Shown here piece by piece: positions 3 to 6,987 of a stretch of 60,405 nucleotides of DNA. Under the pieces are notes generated by a model, which saw only the letters and a list, made by a program, of their open reading frames with translations, searched no databases and was not told where the DNA came from. The translations under genes and the position numbers were made by a program. Origin of the DNA: Flavobacteriaceae bacterium (GTDB lineage Bacteria; Bacteroidota; Bacteroidia; Flavobacteriales; Weeksellaceae); assembly GCA_018260565.1 (NCBI GenBank), contig JAGLAZ010000001.1:194447-254851 (forward strand), in the 5' to 3' direction. Each line of letters starts with the position of its first letter. The stretch's first letter is position 1.

Positions 3-977
3 TCTAAAAATCCTCTTCTTGTCGCTGGAGACGTGTATCGCCCGGCAGCCGTCAATCAGCTCCAAGTATTAGGAGGCAATATTAATGTACCAGTTTACAC
101 AGAAGAAGGCGCTACAAATCCTACAAGTATAGCAGAAAACGCAATTGCTTTTGCCAAGGAAAATAAACATGATGTAGTCATCATAGATACCGCCGGTCGT
201 TTAGCGGTAGACGAACAGATGATGAATGAAATAAAGGCCGTTCATTACTTTGTTAAACCAGATGAAACCCTATTTGTGGTAGATTCTATGACGGGGCAGG
301 ATGCCGTAAACACTGCAAAAGCCTTTAATGATGCCCTCAATTTTGATGGTGTGGTGCTTACCAAATTAGACGGTGATACCCGTGGTGGAGCTGCCCTTAC
401 CATACGGTCGGTAGTAGAGAAGCCTATTAAATTTATTTCTACAGGAGAAAAAATGGAAGCCCTGGATCTTTTCTATCCGGAAAGGATGGCAGATAGGATT
501 CTAGGGATGGGAGATGTAGTATCTCTAGTGGAGCGTGCCCAGGAGCAATTTGATGAAGAAGAAGCAAAGAAACTTCACAAAAAAATCGCAAAAAATGAAT
601 TTGGTTTTGATGACTTTTTAGTTCAAATAAATCAAATCAAAAAAATGGGTAATATGAAGGATATTCTGGGAATGCTTCCAGGTGTTGGAAAAGCTATCAA
701 GGATGTAGACATTAAGGATGATGCTTTTAAGCATATTGAAGCAATGATTCATAGTATGACTCCCGACGAACGACGTAGACCATCCATCATCAATACCCAA
801 AGAAAAAACAGGATAGCACGAGGAAGTGGCAGGAAAATCGAGGATGTAAATCAGCTCATGAAACAGTTTGAGCAAATGGGAAAAATGATGAAAATGATGC
901 AGGGTCCTCAAGGCAAACAGCTGATGCAAATGATGAGCCAGGGAATGCCAAAAATGCCCGGTGGATTTAAAATGTAG
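3..977 (+). CDS. ffh: Signal recognition particle protein Ffh, C-terminal part (5' end outside window)
   Basis: This is the SRP GTPase, which binds signal peptides of nascent membrane and secreted proteins together with SRP RNA and docks with FtsY. The reading frame is open from base 3, upstream of the first possible start, so the N-terminal NG-domain part lies outside the window. Visible motifs are VAGDVYRPAA, the G3 motif DTAGRL, the G4/G5 region TKLDGDTRGG, and the methionine-rich M domain with RIARGSG followed by a long run of Met and the tail MPKMPGGFKM. The gene ends in a strong terminator. The SRP RNA gene lies about 4.3 kb downstream, so both SRP parts are in this window. Identity is secure. 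Confidence 0.97.
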   Translation, partial: SKNPLLVAGDVYRPAAVNQLQVLGGNINVPVYTEEGATNPTSIAENAIAFAKENKHDVVIIDTAGRLAVDEQMMNEIKAVHYFVKPDETLFVVDSMTGQDAVNTAKAFNDALNFDGVVLTKLDGDTRGGAALTIRSVVEKPIKFISTGEKMEALDLFYPERMADRILGMGDVVSLVERAQEQFDEEEAKKLHKKIAKNEFGFDDFLVQINQIKKMGNMKDILGMLPGVGKAIKDVDIKDDAFKHIEAMIHSMTPDERRRPSIINTQRKNRIARGSGRKIEDVNQLMKQFEQMGKMMKMMQGPQGKQLMQMMSQGMPKMPGGFKM

Positions 978-982
978 AATAA

Positions 983-1016
983 CAAAGAAGCAGGAAATAT
1001 CCTGCTTCTTTGTTTA
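983..1016 (+). terminator. Rho-independent terminator of ffh
   Basis: A 13-bp perfect stem (983-995 pairing with 1000-1012) with a 4-nt loop starts 5 nt after the ffh stop codon, with a short T-rich tail. Confidence 0.9.
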
Positions 1017-1068
1017 ATAGATTTTAGAAAAAATTATTACAAATTTTTTAGTATTAATATTTCCATTT

Positions 1069-1150
1069 GGGCGCCTTTTTCGTCCTCCGTTCCCGCTTTT
1101 TTATATCGTCGTTCCTTCTCATAAAAAGAGCTCCACTTAGGCCGGGGCGC
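1069..1150 (+). repeat. Dispersed intergenic element, copy A (82 bp)
   Basis: This is one of three copies in the window (others at 14522-14603 and 51186-51287). It begins GGGCGCC and ends GGGGCGC. It contains the shared blocks GTCCTCCGTTCCCGC and CTTTTTTATA on the left and CATAAAAAGAGCTCCACT and GGCCGGGGCGC on the right. The inner GCTTTTTTAT and ATAAAAAGAGC arms can pair. It differs from copy B at four positions only. It lies between the convergent 3' ends of ffh and the sugar mutase and is far richer in GC than its surroundings. Confidence 0.9.
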
Positions 1151-1178
1151 ATAGTAACATAGGTAATGTATTTTCTAT

Positions 1179-2915
1179 CTAAAGTTCTAAATCTAAGCGT
1201 ATCTGTTCTATTTTTTCCTCCGCTAAATTAACTTTTTTGTCATATTCTGAGATATCAGATATTTCACTTTTTACAGAAATATAAAATTTTATTTTGGGTT
1301 CAGTTCCTGAAGGACGAGCGCACACTTTAGTACCATCTGCAGTATAAAATACCAATACATTAGATTTTGGAAGGGAATCCATAAGGTGTTCTTTAGATAA
1401 ATCCTCTATGAAATTGTATTCCTTTTGCACTTCATAATCTGTTATTCGGACTACAGCGGAACCACCTAACACCGTGGGAGGATTGTTACGGAATTTTTTC
1501 ATCATAGACAGTATTTCTTCAGCCCCTGATTTTCCTTTTTTGGTAATATTTATCAAGCCTTCGTAATAAAATCCAAGCTCCTTATAAATTTCTATAAGGT
1601 ATTCAAAGAGGCTACTGCCCTTACTTTTACATAATGCAGCTATCTCACAAGCAAGAAGAATTGAGCCGCAGCTATCCTTATCACGAACAAAATCACCAGT
1701 CATAAACCCAAAACTTTCCTCACCACCGCAGATAAATTTTTCTTTACCCTCTGTTTCGGCATCCCGTATCATTTTTCCTATCCACTTAAAACCAGTTAAG
1801 CCTGCCTTGCATTTCACCCCAAATCGTTCTGCAATAGCAAAAAATATATCAGAAGTTACTATGGTACTGGCTATGAATTCATTACCTGTAATTCTTCCCG
1901 CCTTTTTCCATTCATCTAATATGTAGTAGGTAAGGATAGTATTGCATTGATTCCCATTTAGAAGTTGCATTTTCCATGATAAATTACGCACCGCAATTCC
2001 GAGACGGTCACCATCAGGATCCGTCCCAATAACAATGTCAGAATGTAGCATTTCTGCTCTATGCACTGCCATAGACAATGCTTCGGGTTCTTCTGGATTC
2101 GGGGATTCTACTGTAGGGAAATTACCGCTGGGAATCATCTGTTCTTCCACATAATCTACTTTAGTAAAACCAGCTATAGAAAATGCTTTAGGAATAGTAG
2201 TGTAGGTGGTACCGTGGATGGAAGTAAATACTATTTTTAAGTCTTGGTATCCAATTTTGTCCTTTTGATACAAGGAGTTCGTAATGCATGCCGAAATGTA
2301 TCTTTCATCCTGACTATCATCAACATACTCTATTAAACTTTCATTGGCCTTAAATATTATATCCTGATATTCTGTGCGATACACTGCATCTATAATATTT
2401 TTATCATGAGGAGGAACTACTTGTGCACCATCATTCCAATATACCTTATATCCATTGTATTCCGGTGGATTATGAGATGCGGTAAGTACTATTCCTGCAT
2501 GACACTTTTTATCTCGAACAGTAAAACTAAGTTCTGGCGTTGGTCGGTGTTCATGAAACAGCAATGCGCGGATTCCATTTCCGGATAAAACATCAGCTAC
2601 CAATTGCCCAAATTCTCTGGAGTTGTGCCGAACATCATAGGCGATAGCAACTATAATTTCTTCATCCTTATAGCAACTTTTAAGATAAGTTGCCAGTCCT
2701 TGGGTAGCCTGACCAAGAGTATATTTATTTAACCTATTGGTACCTACTCCCATTATCCCACGCATACCTCCTGTTCCAAATTCCAAATTTTTATAAAATC
2801 TATCTTCCAAATCTGGGGCGTTGGTCGCTATAAGATTGGTTACTTCTTCTCTGGTATTCTCATCAAAGGAATCGGACGTCCATAATTTGGCTATATCTAG
2901 ATAATTTTTGGTCAT
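1179..2915 (-). CDS. Phosphoglucomutase/phosphomannomutase (PGM2-like phospho-sugar mutase)
   Basis: A cytosolic alpha-D-phosphohexomutase that interconverts hexose 1- and 6-phosphates. At 578 residues it has the usual length of the long PGM2/PgcA type. The phosphoserine loop TASHNP is at 145-150 (catalytic Ser147), the metal-binding loop GTDPDGDR at 297-304, the sugar-binding loop GGEESFGF near 395, and the phosphate-binding loop RPSGTEP at 534-540, so all four active-site loops are intact. The start lies 1 nt after the stop of the DUF2807 lipoprotein gene, so it is the last gene of the operon DUF4199, glycosyltransferase, DUF2807, mutase. A role in supplying sugar phosphates for envelope glycans is inferred from the glycosyltransferase neighbour; exact substrate preference cannot be read from sequence. 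Confidence 0.95.
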   Translation of the reverse strand: MTKNYLDIAKLWTSDSFDENTREEVTNLIATNAPDLEDRFYKNLEFGTGGMRGIMGVGTNRLNKYTLGQATQGLATYLKSCYKDEEIIVAIAYDVRHNSREFGQLVADVLSGNGIRALLFHEHRPTPELSFTVRDKKCHAGIVLTASHNPPEYNGYKVYWNDGAQVVPPHDKNIIDAVYRTEYQDIIFKANESLIEYVDDSQDERYISACITNSLYQKDKIGYQDLKIVFTSIHGTTYTTIPKAFSIAGFTKVDYVEEQMIPSGNFPTVESPNPEEPEALSMAVHRAEMLHSDIVIGTDPDGDRLGIAVRNLSWKMQLLNGNQCNTILTYYILDEWKKAGRITGNEFIASTIVTSDIFFAIAERFGVKCKAGLTGFKWIGKMIRDAETEGKEKFICGGEESFGFMTGDFVRDKDSCGSILLACEIAALCKSKGSSLFEYLIEIYKELGFYYEGLINITKKGKSGAEEILSMMKKFRNNPPTVLGGSAVVRITDYEVQKEYNFIEDLSKEHLMDSLPKSNVLVFYTADGTKVCARPSGTEPKIKFYISVKSEISDISEYDKKVNLAEEKIEQIRLDLEL

Positions 2916-2916
2916 A

Positions 2917-3636
2917 TTATAAGTCTTTGTGCTGTACGGTTGCTTTAATGTTTATTTTTATTTTTCTTACAGGGTCTCCGTAGTAAATTAATTTTGTAGC
3001 TGGGCCAATAGTCCCTTGAAGAATATTTTCAGCAAAAATCTCTTGATAAGAAACACCTTGAGTATTTATGGTAGCCTCGTTAATAACCAAATATGGAGCA
3101 ATAATCCCGGTAGAATCTTGGGTTTTAAATATTGCTTTATTTGTATAACCTCTAAAATTAGCAGCTGATTTTTGTGCTAAGTTTGCCTCCAAAAAATTAG
3201 ATCGAACGCTTGCTATTATTTTTGAATCGTCAAATAAATGAAGCTGTAAAGAATCCAAATAAAGTACTCCAGAGGTATTAAGTTCTATGGAATCTTTGAG
3301 TCTTATCTGCTTAATTGGATTATTGGAATAAATGTTAATGTTATAAAATGCATACTTGGAATTAGCAACGTCCCTTTTCTCTTTAATGCGCAAAGTATGA
3401 TTATCTTGAGTGATTTTTAAATTGGTAAAAAGGTTTTCAGAGCCTTCAAAAACCAATTCATTTTTATCTGATGGGATATAAAATAATCTAAATTTCCCTT
3501 TAGCTTCTACTCCATATACAGAAGTTAAATTAACTTGTTTTTCAACAATTTTATTTGATGGTTTTACTTTTCCACAACTTATTATTATAATTGAAATTAA
3601 AAATAATAAGGTATAGGTATTAAAATTCTTCTTCAA
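2917..3636 (-). CDS. DUF2807-type (head GIN domain-like) lipoprotein
   Basis: A 239-residue predicted lipoprotein. The N-terminus has a Lys/Asn start, a hydrophobic stretch and a lipobox ending in Cys at about residue 21 (IIISC). The rest is rich in short beta-strand-like segments (for example ELNTSGVLYLDSLQLHLF), which resembles the DUF2807 / putative autotransporter-adhesin head GIN domain common in Bacteroidota. Family assignment is from overall pattern rather than a single motif. The start overlaps the end of the upstream glycosyltransferase gene by 17 nt, and the next gene starts 1 nt after the stop. Function is unknown; a location on a periplasm-facing membrane leaflet is inferred from the signal peptide. 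Confidence 0.75.
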   Translation of the reverse strand: MKKNFNTYTLLFLISIIIISCGKVKPSNKIVEKQVNLTSVYGVEAKGKFRLFYIPSDKNELVFEGSENLFTNLKITQDNHTLRIKEKRDVANSKYAFYNINIYSNNPIKQIRLKDSIELNTSGVLYLDSLQLHLFDDSKIIASVRSNFLEANLAQKSAANFRGYTNKAIFKTQDSTGIIAPYLVINEATINTQGVSYQEIFAENILQGTIGPATKLIYYGDPVRKIKINIKATVQHKDL

Positions 3637-4630
3637 TATGATAGTTTTTATGTTCCCTATTATTTCTTATGACGAGCTCGCCTAAAAAACCTGCAATAAA
3701 TAAAAGTGTACCTAAAATCATTAGAGTAAGCGCAATGAAAAACCAAGGGTTATTGGTAATTAAATGACCATAAATACCTTTAGAGACATCTATTAATTTT
3801 GCAATACCAAGCCAAATTGCAGATAGGAAACCCATCAAAAACATTAAGGTTCCTACTGCCCCAAAAAAGTGCATGGGCCTTGCACCGAAACGGCTTACAA
3901 ACCATAAGGTAATTAAATCCAAAAATCCTCTAACGAATCTTTCAGTACCGAATTTTGAAGTCCCATAAGGACGAGCCTGATGTTTTACCTCTTTTTCACT
4001 TATTCTTCTAAAACCAGCATTGGCGGCTAAAACAGGGATATAGCGATGCATATCTCCATAAACATCTATATTCTGTACCACCTTTTTGCGGTATGCCTTG
4101 AGACCACAGTTAAAATCATGTAAATCAACACCTGAAACCTTCCGTGCTGCTGCATTAAATAATTTTGAAGGTAGATTTTTTGTCAAAACATCATCATATC
4201 GTTTTCGTTTCCACCCAGAAACAATATCTAATTTTTCTGATCGCAATTGTTCTACAAGACCCGGAATTTCTTCAGGAAAGTCCTGCAGATCTGCATCCAT
4301 TGTAATTATAATATCCCCCTTAACCTTGGAAAATGCTGCGTGCAATGCTTGAGACTTTCCATAATTTTTTGCGAATTTTATGGCATGTACTGTCCCTGCT
4401 TGATTTTGTTCTTTTATGAATTGAATAATTTGCCAACTGGAATCTGTGCTTCCATCATCTATAAACCAAACTTCAAAGGGAAATCCGTGAGTATAACAAA
4501 CATCTTTTATTCTAGAAAATAATTGTTCCAAGCTGGCTTCTTCATTTAATAAAGGAATTACAATAGATAGCGAAGGATTTTCCGGCAAATGAAAGGAAGG
4601 AGTGGAAATGTAAGGTAAAGGTTTTTCCAA
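3620..4630 (-). CDS. Family 2 glycosyltransferase, DPM1/GtrB-like, with two C-terminal membrane segments
   Basis: Membrane-anchored GT-A glycosyltransferase of 336 residues, of the type that moves a sugar from a nucleotide donor to a polyprenyl phosphate. The donor-binding motif FIDDGSTDSSW is near residue 56 and the metal-binding DADLQD near 112. The DFNCGLKAYR signature follows near 175. Two hydrophobic helices lie at roughly 256-280 and 297-322, the arrangement seen in polyprenyl-phosphate glycosyltransferases such as GtrB and ArnC. It starts 10 nt after the DUF4199 stop and overlaps the next gene. The sugar donor is not predictable from sequence. Confidence 0.93.
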   Translation of the reverse strand: MEKPLPYISTPSFHLPENPSLSIVIPLLNEEASLEQLFSRIKDVCYTHGFPFEVWFIDDGSTDSSWQIIQFIKEQNQAGTVHAIKFAKNYGKSQALHAAFSKVKGDIIITMDADLQDFPEEIPGLVEQLRSEKLDIVSGWKRKRYDDVLTKNLPSKLFNAAARKVSGVDLHDFNCGLKAYRKKVVQNIDVYGDMHRYIPVLAANAGFRRISEKEVKHQARPYGTSKFGTERFVRGFLDLITLWFVSRFGARPMHFFGAVGTLMFLMGFLSAIWLGIAKLIDVSKGIYGHLITNNPWFFIALTLMILGTLLFIAGFLGELVIRNNREHKNYHIEEEF

Positions 4631-4640
4631 AATTAATTTT

Positions 4641-5216
4641 TTATCTAGGGCTTCTGTTCCTAAAAAATGCTGCGAAAAATAACGAAATTAAGGTGTAAAA
4701 CAAAAGAATTGCAGCCGCATACCGTAAAAAATAGGAAGGAGAAAATATATCGATATGTTTTGTCTGTTCAGGAGTAAAGCTTTGCACACTTTTTTGATAA
4801 TCAGCATCCAACTTTGAAATTTCTTCAGCAGATTTTAGCCGGCCTCGTTCTTTTAGGTATACCGTATCAAGATCATGTTTGTTATTCGCTACAAATTCTG
4901 TATTAAGTTTTTGTTTTGAATAAGGATTTACAAAATTTAAATAGGAAAAAATGACGAAAAGACTTAGGAATCCAGCAATAAATTGTGGTACAAATGATGC
5001 AGAAAATGCTTTTTTAAAATGTAAGAAACCTTTTCGCTTTTCCTGTAATATACTGTAAAGCCCAGCGCCGGCATATAATACAGGCATAATAAAGGAATTA
5101 ACTATTAAACTGGCCTTAAAATAAGCCTTATCAAAGTAAAATGCATAAACCAAAAAAAACAGTACTAGGCTGGTAATTGCGAGAATAGAAGTAATTTTAA
5201 TTTTCTGTGAATTCAT
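4641..5216 (-). CDS. DUF4199 family membrane protein
   Basis: A small integral membrane protein of 191 residues. The longer open frame reaches 5267, but that would run into the SRP RNA gene; the ATG at 5216 (protein start MNSQKIKI) gives a normal first transmembrane helix and sits just downstream of a minus-strand TACATTTG -7 box. Hydrophobic segments are at about 9-28, 35-55, 75-95 and 165-190. The fold and spacing fit DUF4199, a Bacteroidota family with no known function. It is the first gene of a four-gene operon ending in the sugar mutase. Confidence 0.85.
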   Translation of the reverse strand: MNSQKIKITSILAITSLVLFFLVYAFYFDKAYFKASLIVNSFIMPVLYAGAGLYSILQEKRKGFLHFKKAFSASFVPQFIAGFLSLFVIFSYLNFVNPYSKQKLNTEFVANNKHDLDTVYLKERGRLKSAEEISKLDADYQKSVQSFTPEQTKHIDIFSPSYFLRYAAAILLFYTLISLFFAAFFRNRSPR

Positions 5217-5217
5217 A

Positions 5218-5250
5218 TTTGTATTTCCGTGCAAATGTATATATTTGCAC
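5218..5250. promoter_or_regulatory. Overlapping divergent promoters of ffs (+) and the DUF4199 operon (-) in an inverted repeat
   Basis: On the plus strand TTTG (5218-5221), an 18-bp spacer and TATATTTG (5240-5247) match the Bacteroidota housekeeping promoter (TTTG, TAnnTTTG); the ffs 5' stem begins 4-5 nt later. The arms GTGCAAAT (5229-5236) and ATTTGCAC (5243-5250) are perfect 8-bp inverted repeats. Read on the minus strand the left arm supplies a second -7 box, TACATTTG (5239-5232), aimed at the DUF4199 ATG at 5216. I see no good -33 box for the minus promoter. Confidence 0.8.
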
Positions 5251-5352
5251 TGGCAAGTCCTACACAACCAGCTCCTGCAAATCCTCCAGGGTGGGAACGC
5301 AGCAAAGGTAAGTGGTCGTAGCGGTGTGATGTAGGTAGCTTGCCGTTTTTTT
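5251..5352 (+). ncRNA. ffs: Bacterial small signal recognition particle RNA (4.5S-like)
   Basis: The region carries the conserved apical SRP RNA domain: the CAGG strand, a GGGA (GNRA-type) tetraloop and GCAGC on the 3' side, embedded in AGGGTGGGAACGCAGCA. The ends pair: GGCAAG (5252-5257) with CTTGCC (5339-5344), extended by TCCTACA with TGTAGG. A T-run at 5346-5352 acts as terminator. Length of about 95 nt fits the small bacterial class lacking the Alu domain. The RNA scaffolds Ffh, whose gene ends 4.3 kb upstream. The promoter is clearly visible. Confidence 0.95.
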
Positions 5353-6031
5353 ATAATTGTATTTCCTCTCCTAGTTTTGGTAAAATAAGTTCCACATTTC
5401 TTTTGCGGAAACTTTCATACGCTTCTTCGTGATTGATAGTAATAGCTGGAAAAGTATCAAAATGACATCCTATAACTTTAGTACATTTTAACAAATCTGA
5501 GGCTGCAAAAGCAGCTTTATTAGGACACATTGTATAATGTTTTCCTACAGGAAGTATTGCAGTGGTAATTTCTCCATAATAGGGTGTGAAATATGCCATA
5601 TCTGCCATAATTCCTGTATCGCCGGCTAAGTATAAATTTTTACCTTCATACCGAAATATGTAACCACAAGGCTCTCCGCCATAAGATCCATCAGGAAAAC
5701 TAGAGGTATGTGAAGCTGGAACCATAGATATCCTCATCCCATCAAATTTTGCTGAACCTCCAAAATTGATATCCAAAGAGTTTTTATGTTTAAAATAGGC
5801 ACAAATTTCTGGCTGCCCTACTAAAATAACCTCCGGATGAACATCCAATACTTCCTGAACATCTGCAATATGATCCCCATGCGCGTGTGTTACGATAACA
5901 TAATCAATTGCCTGGGAATGAATATCAAATTGGGATTTTTCTTTTTGATAATTATAAAATGGGTCTGATAAAATGGTTTTGTTTTTATAATGAAATAAAA
6001 AACAGTTTTGCCCTAAAAATTGGATTTTCAT
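5351..6031 (-). CDS. UPF0173-type metal-dependent hydrolase (metallo-beta-lactamase fold)
   Basis: A 226-residue protein of the metallo-beta-lactamase superfamily. The zinc-binding signature THAHGDH is at 48-54, followed by a further His in AGDTG near 136 and HFDTFP near 190. It resembles the UPF0173 / YtkL-like group, whose substrates are unknown. The start lies 23 nt after the menA stop, so the two are probably co-transcribed; a role linked to menaquinone synthesis is possible but unsupported. Its 3' end meets the ffs terminator from the other strand. Confidence 0.88.
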   Translation of the reverse strand: MKIQFLGQNCFLFHYKNKTILSDPFYNYQKEKSQFDIHSQAIDYVIVTHAHGDHIADVQEVLDVHPEVILVGQPEICAYFKHKNSLDINFGGSAKFDGMRISMVPASHTSSFPDGSYGGEPCGYIFRYEGKNLYLAGDTGIMADMAYFTPYYGEITTAILPVGKHYTMCPNKAAFAASDLLKCTKVIGCHFDTFPAITINHEEAYESFRKRNVELILPKLGEEIQL

Positions 6032-6054
6032 ACTATAAAATTTGAACTCTAAAT

Positions 6055-6987
6055 TTAACCATAATAATTTAATGTTATTCCTAAAATAAGTGCCATAGCT
6101 AATGTTATAATACCAATTTTTTTTAAAAATGGATCCAGCAATTCAGGATTTTTGGTGGCCAAAATCTTTCTTCGGATCTGCATAAGTGGAAACATCAAAA
6201 TCATTACACTAAAAACTTGATATTTCCCAACTTTGAAAAAGCCTTGTAATCCCAGCCAAATCAAAATTAAAATAAAGGGTAATTGCAGTAAAACCATTTG
6301 GTATATCATAGCAATTTTAAAACCTAAAATAGCTGCAAAAGTTTTTTTATTATGTAAAATATCATTTTCTACATCCCGCATATTATTGAGATTAAGAACA
6401 GCTGTGCTTAATAGTCCTACAGCCATGGCAGGGAGGTAAATATATTCGTTTAAAGATTTGGTAAACAAAAAGTAACTTCCTATAACGGAAACCAAACCAA
6501 AAAATATAAACACCATTATATCTCCTAAACCAAAATAACCATATGGTTTTTTTCCTATAGTATAGCCTATAGCTGCTAAAATACTAGCAAATCCTAGTCC
6601 TATAAAAATCCAAAATTCCCGAGTGAAACCTGGTAAAAACGCTACATATAATAATAAAGCAGTTAAAAGCAATGCCAATATAGTGGTCGATATTATTGCG
6701 ATCTTCATTTGTCTTAAAGTAATTTTACCAGAAGCTATGGTCCGTTTATCTGCGCTGGAAACTCTGTTGGAATCTGTCCCTTTTACAGAATCACCATAAT
6801 CATTTGCAAAATTCGAAAGAACTTGATACAAAAGAGTAACTATCATGGCCAAAGCGAATATGCGCCAATCCCAATCCTTGCCACTATTTTTCAGCTCCCA
6901 TCGAGCTATACAAGAACCTAAAATTATACCGCTCATGGAGAGTGGTAAGGTTCTAAGACGTGCAGCCTGTAGCCAGTTGGAAATCAC
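6055..6987 (-). CDS. menA: 1,4-dihydroxy-2-naphthoate polyprenyltransferase MenA
   Basis: Integral membrane UbiA-family prenyltransferase that attaches the isoprenoid tail to 1,4-dihydroxy-2-naphthoate, giving demethylmenaquinone. The first Asp-rich motif NFANDYGDSVKGTDS is at 59-73 and the second is LNNMRDVENDILHNKKTFA near 200. At least seven hydrophobic segments follow, ending LGITLNYYG. Length 310 is typical. menB lies upstream on the same strand after a 94-nt gap. Confidence 0.95.
   Translation of the reverse strand: MISNWLQAARLRTLPLSMSGIILGSCIARWELKNSGKDWDWRIFALAMIVTLLYQVLSNFANDYGDSVKGTDSNRVSSADKRTIASGKITLRQMKIAIISTTILALLLTALLLYVAFLPGFTREFWIFIGLGFASILAAIGYTIGKKPYGYFGLGDIMVFIFFGLVSVIGSYFLFTKSLNEYIYLPAMAVGLLSTAVLNLNNMRDVENDILHNKKTFAAILGFKIAMIYQMVLLQLPFILILIWLGLQGFFKVGKYQVFSVMILMFPLMQIRRKILATKNPELLDPFLKKIGIITLAMALILGITLNYYG

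Follow-up and report, generated by a model that had tools for sequence, protein, structure and literature searches.

Bidirectional promoters are described in Escherichia coli, where opposed housekeeping promoters lie within one short symmetric stretch of DNA and share a -10 element. The excerpted text of Warman et al. 2026 (PMC12825309) states that simultaneous polymerase binding is sterically excluded at such promoters, with transcription start sites 18, 10 or 23 bp apart. The same excerpts report basal activity too low for competition at five of five promoters tested, and possible repression of one direction by strong activation of the other. Sigma-A promoters of Bacteroidota carry TAnnTTTG at -12 to -5 (the -7 box) and TTTG near -33, according to the partial texts of two accounts (PMC7366714, PMC9723704). 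In these parts of the two accounts we found no divergent or bidirectional promoter pair, and at the level of titles and abstracts we found no published report of a bidirectional promoter in Bacteroidota or of the ffs neighbourhood.

The locus described here lies in a Flavobacteriaceae genome, upstream of ffs, the gene of the small SRP RNA. The window is the whole stretch of DNA that was analysed (60,405 nucleotides), and the features concerned are the following.

5229-5250, no strand: inverted repeat GTGCAAAT-GTATAT-ATTTGCAC, exact match, 10 of 11 pairs symmetric
5244-5349, plus strand: ffs, small SRP RNA gene (Rfam RF04183, 98.2 bits, cut-off 55.2; span of the model)
5240-5247, plus strand: ffs -7 box TATATTTG; TAnnTTTG present there in 143 of 144 distinct upstreams
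5218-5221, plus strand: ffs -33 box TTTG, 18-bp spacer
5252, plus strand: predicted ffs transcription start, the G of GGCAAG
5232-5239, minus strand: TACATTTG, the -7 box for the DUF4199 operon; it adjoins the ffs box and is 15 nt from the ATG
5227, minus strand: predicted start of the DUF4199 operon, leader of 11 nt
4641-5216, minus strand: DUF4199 protein (PF13858, E 2.5e-13), ATG at 5216
3623-4630, minus strand: family 2 glycosyltransferase (PF00535, E 7.9e-32)
2917-3636, minus strand: DUF2807 protein (PF10988)
1179-2915, minus strand: phosphoglucomutase/phosphomannomutase (PF02878-PF02880)
5351-6031, minus strand: metallo-beta-lactamase-fold protein (PF12706), on the DUF4199 strand

The 22-bp sequence GTGCAAATNNNNNNATTTGCAC matches perfectly at 5229-5250 and is a pair of Bacteroidota sigma-A -7 boxes that face apart, TATATTTG and TACATTTG, the latter reading from 5239 down to 5232. 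The initial annotation had described a perfect palindrome with one -7 box on each strand, and both boxes are located there. It placed them 1 bp apart; across the junction CAAATGTA|TATATTTG the opposed boxes touch, with a gap of 0, within one short symmetric stretch. We consider it likely that the locus is a lineage-specific bidirectional promoter, with two sigma-A promoters back to back, mutually exclusive polymerase binding and dominance of ffs. The right arm would be the long-conserved -7 box of ffs, and the left arm a lineage-specific box for the DUF4199-glycosyltransferase-DUF2807-mutase operon. With the -7 boxes placed at -12 to -5 (as given in the partial text of PMC9723704), the predicted starts at 5252 (plus) and 5227 (minus) are 25 bp apart and both outside the repeat, so that neither RNA would carry the palindrome, which would act as DNA alone. 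RNA polymerase would bind in one orientation at a time. The ffs promoter, with its -33 box, should win, and the operon promoter, lacking one, should fire less, in the gaps between ffs firing. We infer both starts, the polymerase exclusion and the ffs dominance; what we observe directly is the boxes, how far each is conserved and how they are spaced to the start codons.

As in the excerpts on E. coli (PMC12825309), opposed housekeeping promoters thus appear within one short symmetric stretch, with a predicted start distance of 25 bp here compared with 10, 18 or 23 bp there. Unlike the shared -10 element of E. coli in those excerpts, the locus has Bacteroidota -7 boxes that abut. It further differs in that one product is a stable RNA. 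That only one polymerase at a time could use the two promoters, as had been proposed for this DNA, is sound by geometry, and the available portion of PMC12825309 states the steric point for E. coli. Since ffs is expected to be strong, some throttling of the operon by its firing is plausible, and competition between the two promoters is possible.

The ffs side carries both sigma-A elements, and both are conserved. The TAnnTTTG is followed by CA in 140 of 143 upstreams, and TTTG stands at a spacer of 17-20 in 88 of 142 upstreams, as compared with 17 of 142 when a displaced window is taken as control. The TTTG at 18 bp from the plus box had been correctly noted before. As far as the partial accounts describe Bacteroidota sigma-A promoters (PMC7366714, PMC9723704), the ffs side fits them, and the minus promoter departs from them in having no -33 motif. 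Expression of ffs is expected to be strong because its -7 and -33 elements are conserved. The mature RNA probably begins at 5252, inside the Rfam span that starts at 5244. RF04183 was detected in 292 of 296 genomes of the family, and ffs-anchored -7 matches occur in 277 of 395 genomes of the class, though some of these matches are not ffs. The right arm is thus an old promoter element, conserved class-wide. The T-run of ffs overlaps the stop codon of the metallo-beta-lactamase-fold gene. The window also encodes, at 33-977 on the plus strand and about 4.3 kb from ffs, the C-terminal part of Ffh (SRP54), the protein that partners ffs RNA; in the 80 named relatives no Ffh gene was found up to 3.5 kb from the glycosyltransferase gene, a flank that barely passes the mutase gene.

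On the minus strand, AGGA and not TTTG stands at the 18-bp spacer, in agreement with the initial annotation. The position of the box was compared with a survey of TAnnTTTG within 120 nt of the ATG, covering 254,851 bases of the same genome and 218 ORFs. Boxes 0-29 nt before the ATG made up 48 of 66 in the sense orientation versus 10 of 39 in the antisense control (Fisher p 5e-6). The fullest class was 10-19 nt, with 25 sense and 4 antisense boxes, and the DUF4199 box at 15 nt falls into it. Because boxes pile up 0-29 nt before start codons, the minus box is probably a working promoter, and it looks like the usual promoter of a short-leader genome. Alternatively, the left box could be a chance match and the operon could be read through from the UbiA and metallo-beta-lactamase genes, antisense to ffs. 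All genes concerned are on the minus strand in an order kept in many relatives, 111 of 131 distinct ffs-DUF4199 intergenic regions (the window counted) have no strict minus box, and a box would fall within 13 offsets by chance with a probability of 0.9-2.8%. We regard this as rather unlikely for the window, where the box sits at the commonest ATG distance of its own genome and where antisense passage over a highly expressed stable RNA gene would be expected to collide with ffs transcription. Read-through from the upstream minus-strand genes may serve the operon here. Most relatives, lacking a strict minus box, must express the operon otherwise, either from weaker boxes or by read-through from the metallo-beta-lactamase and UbiA genes beyond ffs. 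When the minus box was relaxed to 5 of 6 positions, 77 of 130 relatives had one 4-26 nt ahead of the DUF4199 ATG; this count is uncontrolled, and AT-rich DNA yields many such matches. In the window, ffs lies antisense within a conserved minus-strand row of UbiA, metallo-beta-lactamase fold, DUF4199 and glycosyltransferase (5252-6987).

Conservation was assessed at 171 loci, comprising the window, 90 loci from a family search (30 picked by score, 60 to spread over genera) and 80 named relatives. The named relatives came from a glycosyltransferase search and are mostly Chryseobacterium and other genera that we take to belong to Weeksellaceae. One locus without an ffs anchor (L106) was dropped, and the remaining 170 gave 144 distinct upstreams of 60 bp. 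The window's genus is represented by a single genome in the collection, and a DUF4199 scan of genome contigs gave no closer relatives. A divergent DUF4199 homologue lies at most 320 nt from ffs at 142 of 170 loci. The initial annotation had named conservation of the palindrome upstream of ffs as a check, with lack of conservation of the left arm as the refuting result, and that result was obtained. Of 143 distinct upstreams, only that of the window has the exact left arm GTGCAAAT; one has 2 mismatches to it, four have 3 and 137 at least 4. Thus none of the 142 others has it exactly, and the 10 of 11 symmetric pairs of the window compare with at most 7 elsewhere. A conserved palindrome was rejected on these counts. 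The left arm appears to be new and lineage-specific, and the right arm old.

A strict minus box was found in 20 of 131 intergenic regions, namely in the window, in nine regions at 4 nt, in one at 29 nt and in nine at 92-102 nt before the ATG. In none of the other 19 does it abut the ffs box. At L003, L005, L007, L010, L013, L014, L016, L019 and L038, 4 nt separate the end of the box from the DUF4199 ATG; the predicted start would then be the A of the ATG, giving a leaderless mRNA in this group of relatives. At L057, L064, L085, L089, L121, L138 and L161, a minus-strand TAAATTTG precedes the ffs box by about 12 bp, at 101-102 nt from the ATG of DUF4199. Across the class, 10 of 395 genomes (9 of them ffs-like) have a minus box at most 12 bp upstream of the ffs one, with a gap of 0 in the window only. 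The rate of close pairs at ffs is about 3% of the 277 genomes with an ffs-anchored box, close to the chance level of 0.9-2.8%. An evolved switch is disfavoured because the geometry is absent in relatives, and the suggestion of reciprocal control as a conserved function finds no support in a left arm that lacks conservation. The locus looks like an ordinary bidirectional promoter and not like a conserved switch.

The palindrome as a bare inverted repeat is unexceptional and stands out solely by its location. Perfect repeats whose arms measure at least 8 and whose spacers do not exceed 10 number 20 in the window and 13-28 in 12 dinucleotide shuffles. The right arm consists of the ffs -7 box and the CAC that often follows it, CAC after a -7 box having a chance of about 2%. 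These outer three symmetric bases are not needed by the box, and some symmetry remains unexplained. The palindrome had also been put forward as an operator, which would mean a dimeric repressor or activator governing both promoters. Its length of 22 bp, its centre between the two starts and a symmetry beyond the needs of the boxes (outer CAC/GTG) would suit such a site. We nevertheless consider this very unlikely given that the 1.87 Mb genome has a single exact copy of the 22-mer pattern, no other copy at 0-1 mismatch and one site at 2 mismatches, which lies within an ORF. The 17 sites with at most 3 mismatches are near the expectation from window shuffles (0.51 per 60.4 kb), although the reversed-pattern control gave 2; the left arm is missing from 142 of 142 other distinct upstreams, and no transcription factor was found among the window genes given to Pfam (33 to 6987). 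An operator regulon was rejected, as no other genome site has 0-1 mismatch. It is extremely improbable that the palindrome is a terminator or an RNA structure in a leftward transcript; it folds at -9.3 kcal/mol (z -3.1), but no U run follows it on the minus strand and it lies in neither predicted transcript.

Back-to-back -7 boxes were also searched elsewhere. Across 60 family genomes, CAAANNTATANNTTTG has 88 sites versus 45 for the reversed pattern, about 1.5 per genome; with so weak an excess, a general class of back-to-back -7 palindromes was rejected. The window's own genome has 20 sites with gaps of 0-10 (reversed control 9), four of them with gap 0 and three with gap 1. Among these seven, only the ffs site and a tRNA-Arg site clearly lie between two divergent genes, and a site on contig C29 had no ORF listed. 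The tRNA-Arg pair, with boxes 1 bp apart, sits on the ffs contig between tRNA-Arg (minus) and a 352-aa ORF (plus), at L174:4064-4080 (C16:44064-44080).

Minus-strand gene order around ffs is kept in many relatives. We picked 40 ffs loci by hand from the ffs-anchored boxes listed for the class, spread over its families; at 11 of them a glycosyltransferase homologue (E at most 2e-95) lies within 1.9 kb upstream of ffs in divergent orientation. Four further loci from the close-pair search (L217, L223, L224, L226) show the same arrangement. Divergent ffs, DUF4199 (not always present) and glycosyltransferase 2 are thus found in ten other families of the class, at L217, L223, L224, L226, L228-L230, L237, L240, L244, L254, L256, L259, L262 and L263. 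All ten scanned proteins between ffs and the glycosyltransferase are DUF4199 by Pfam; the eleventh, at L230, was outside the scan. At L217, L228, L240 and L262 the glycosyltransferase itself adjoins ffs. Among the 296 ORF segments of contig C16 the glycosyltransferase query matched no gene but its own, so the probability of chance adjacency is small. DUF4199 and glycosyltransferase genes also stand side by side in Porphyromonas gingivalis, according to the part of PMC10434189 that describes them. The divergent neighbourhood of ffs, DUF4199 and glycosyltransferase 2 is far older than the palindrome.

A more far-reaching scenario is that strong, growth-linked firing of ffs keeps polymerase off the abutting promoter, and SRP RNA output would thereby throttle the membrane glycosyltransferase operon. 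The class-wide neighbourhood would then reflect an old coupling of protein export and the assembly of envelope glycans, tightened in this lineage to a bidirectional promoter. We consider this quite unlikely. The initial observation itself was right and well read, and the predicted bidirectional promoter probably works in this lineage. If transcription is confirmed, bidirectional promoters would be extended to the distinctive -7 box of Bacteroidota. Competition between polymerases could then also be tested cleanly at the locus, since one of its sides is a stable RNA gene for which strong transcription is expected. The neighbourhood of ffs, DUF4199 and glycosyltransferase provides a lead on the function of DUF4199, an uncharacterised membrane protein family.
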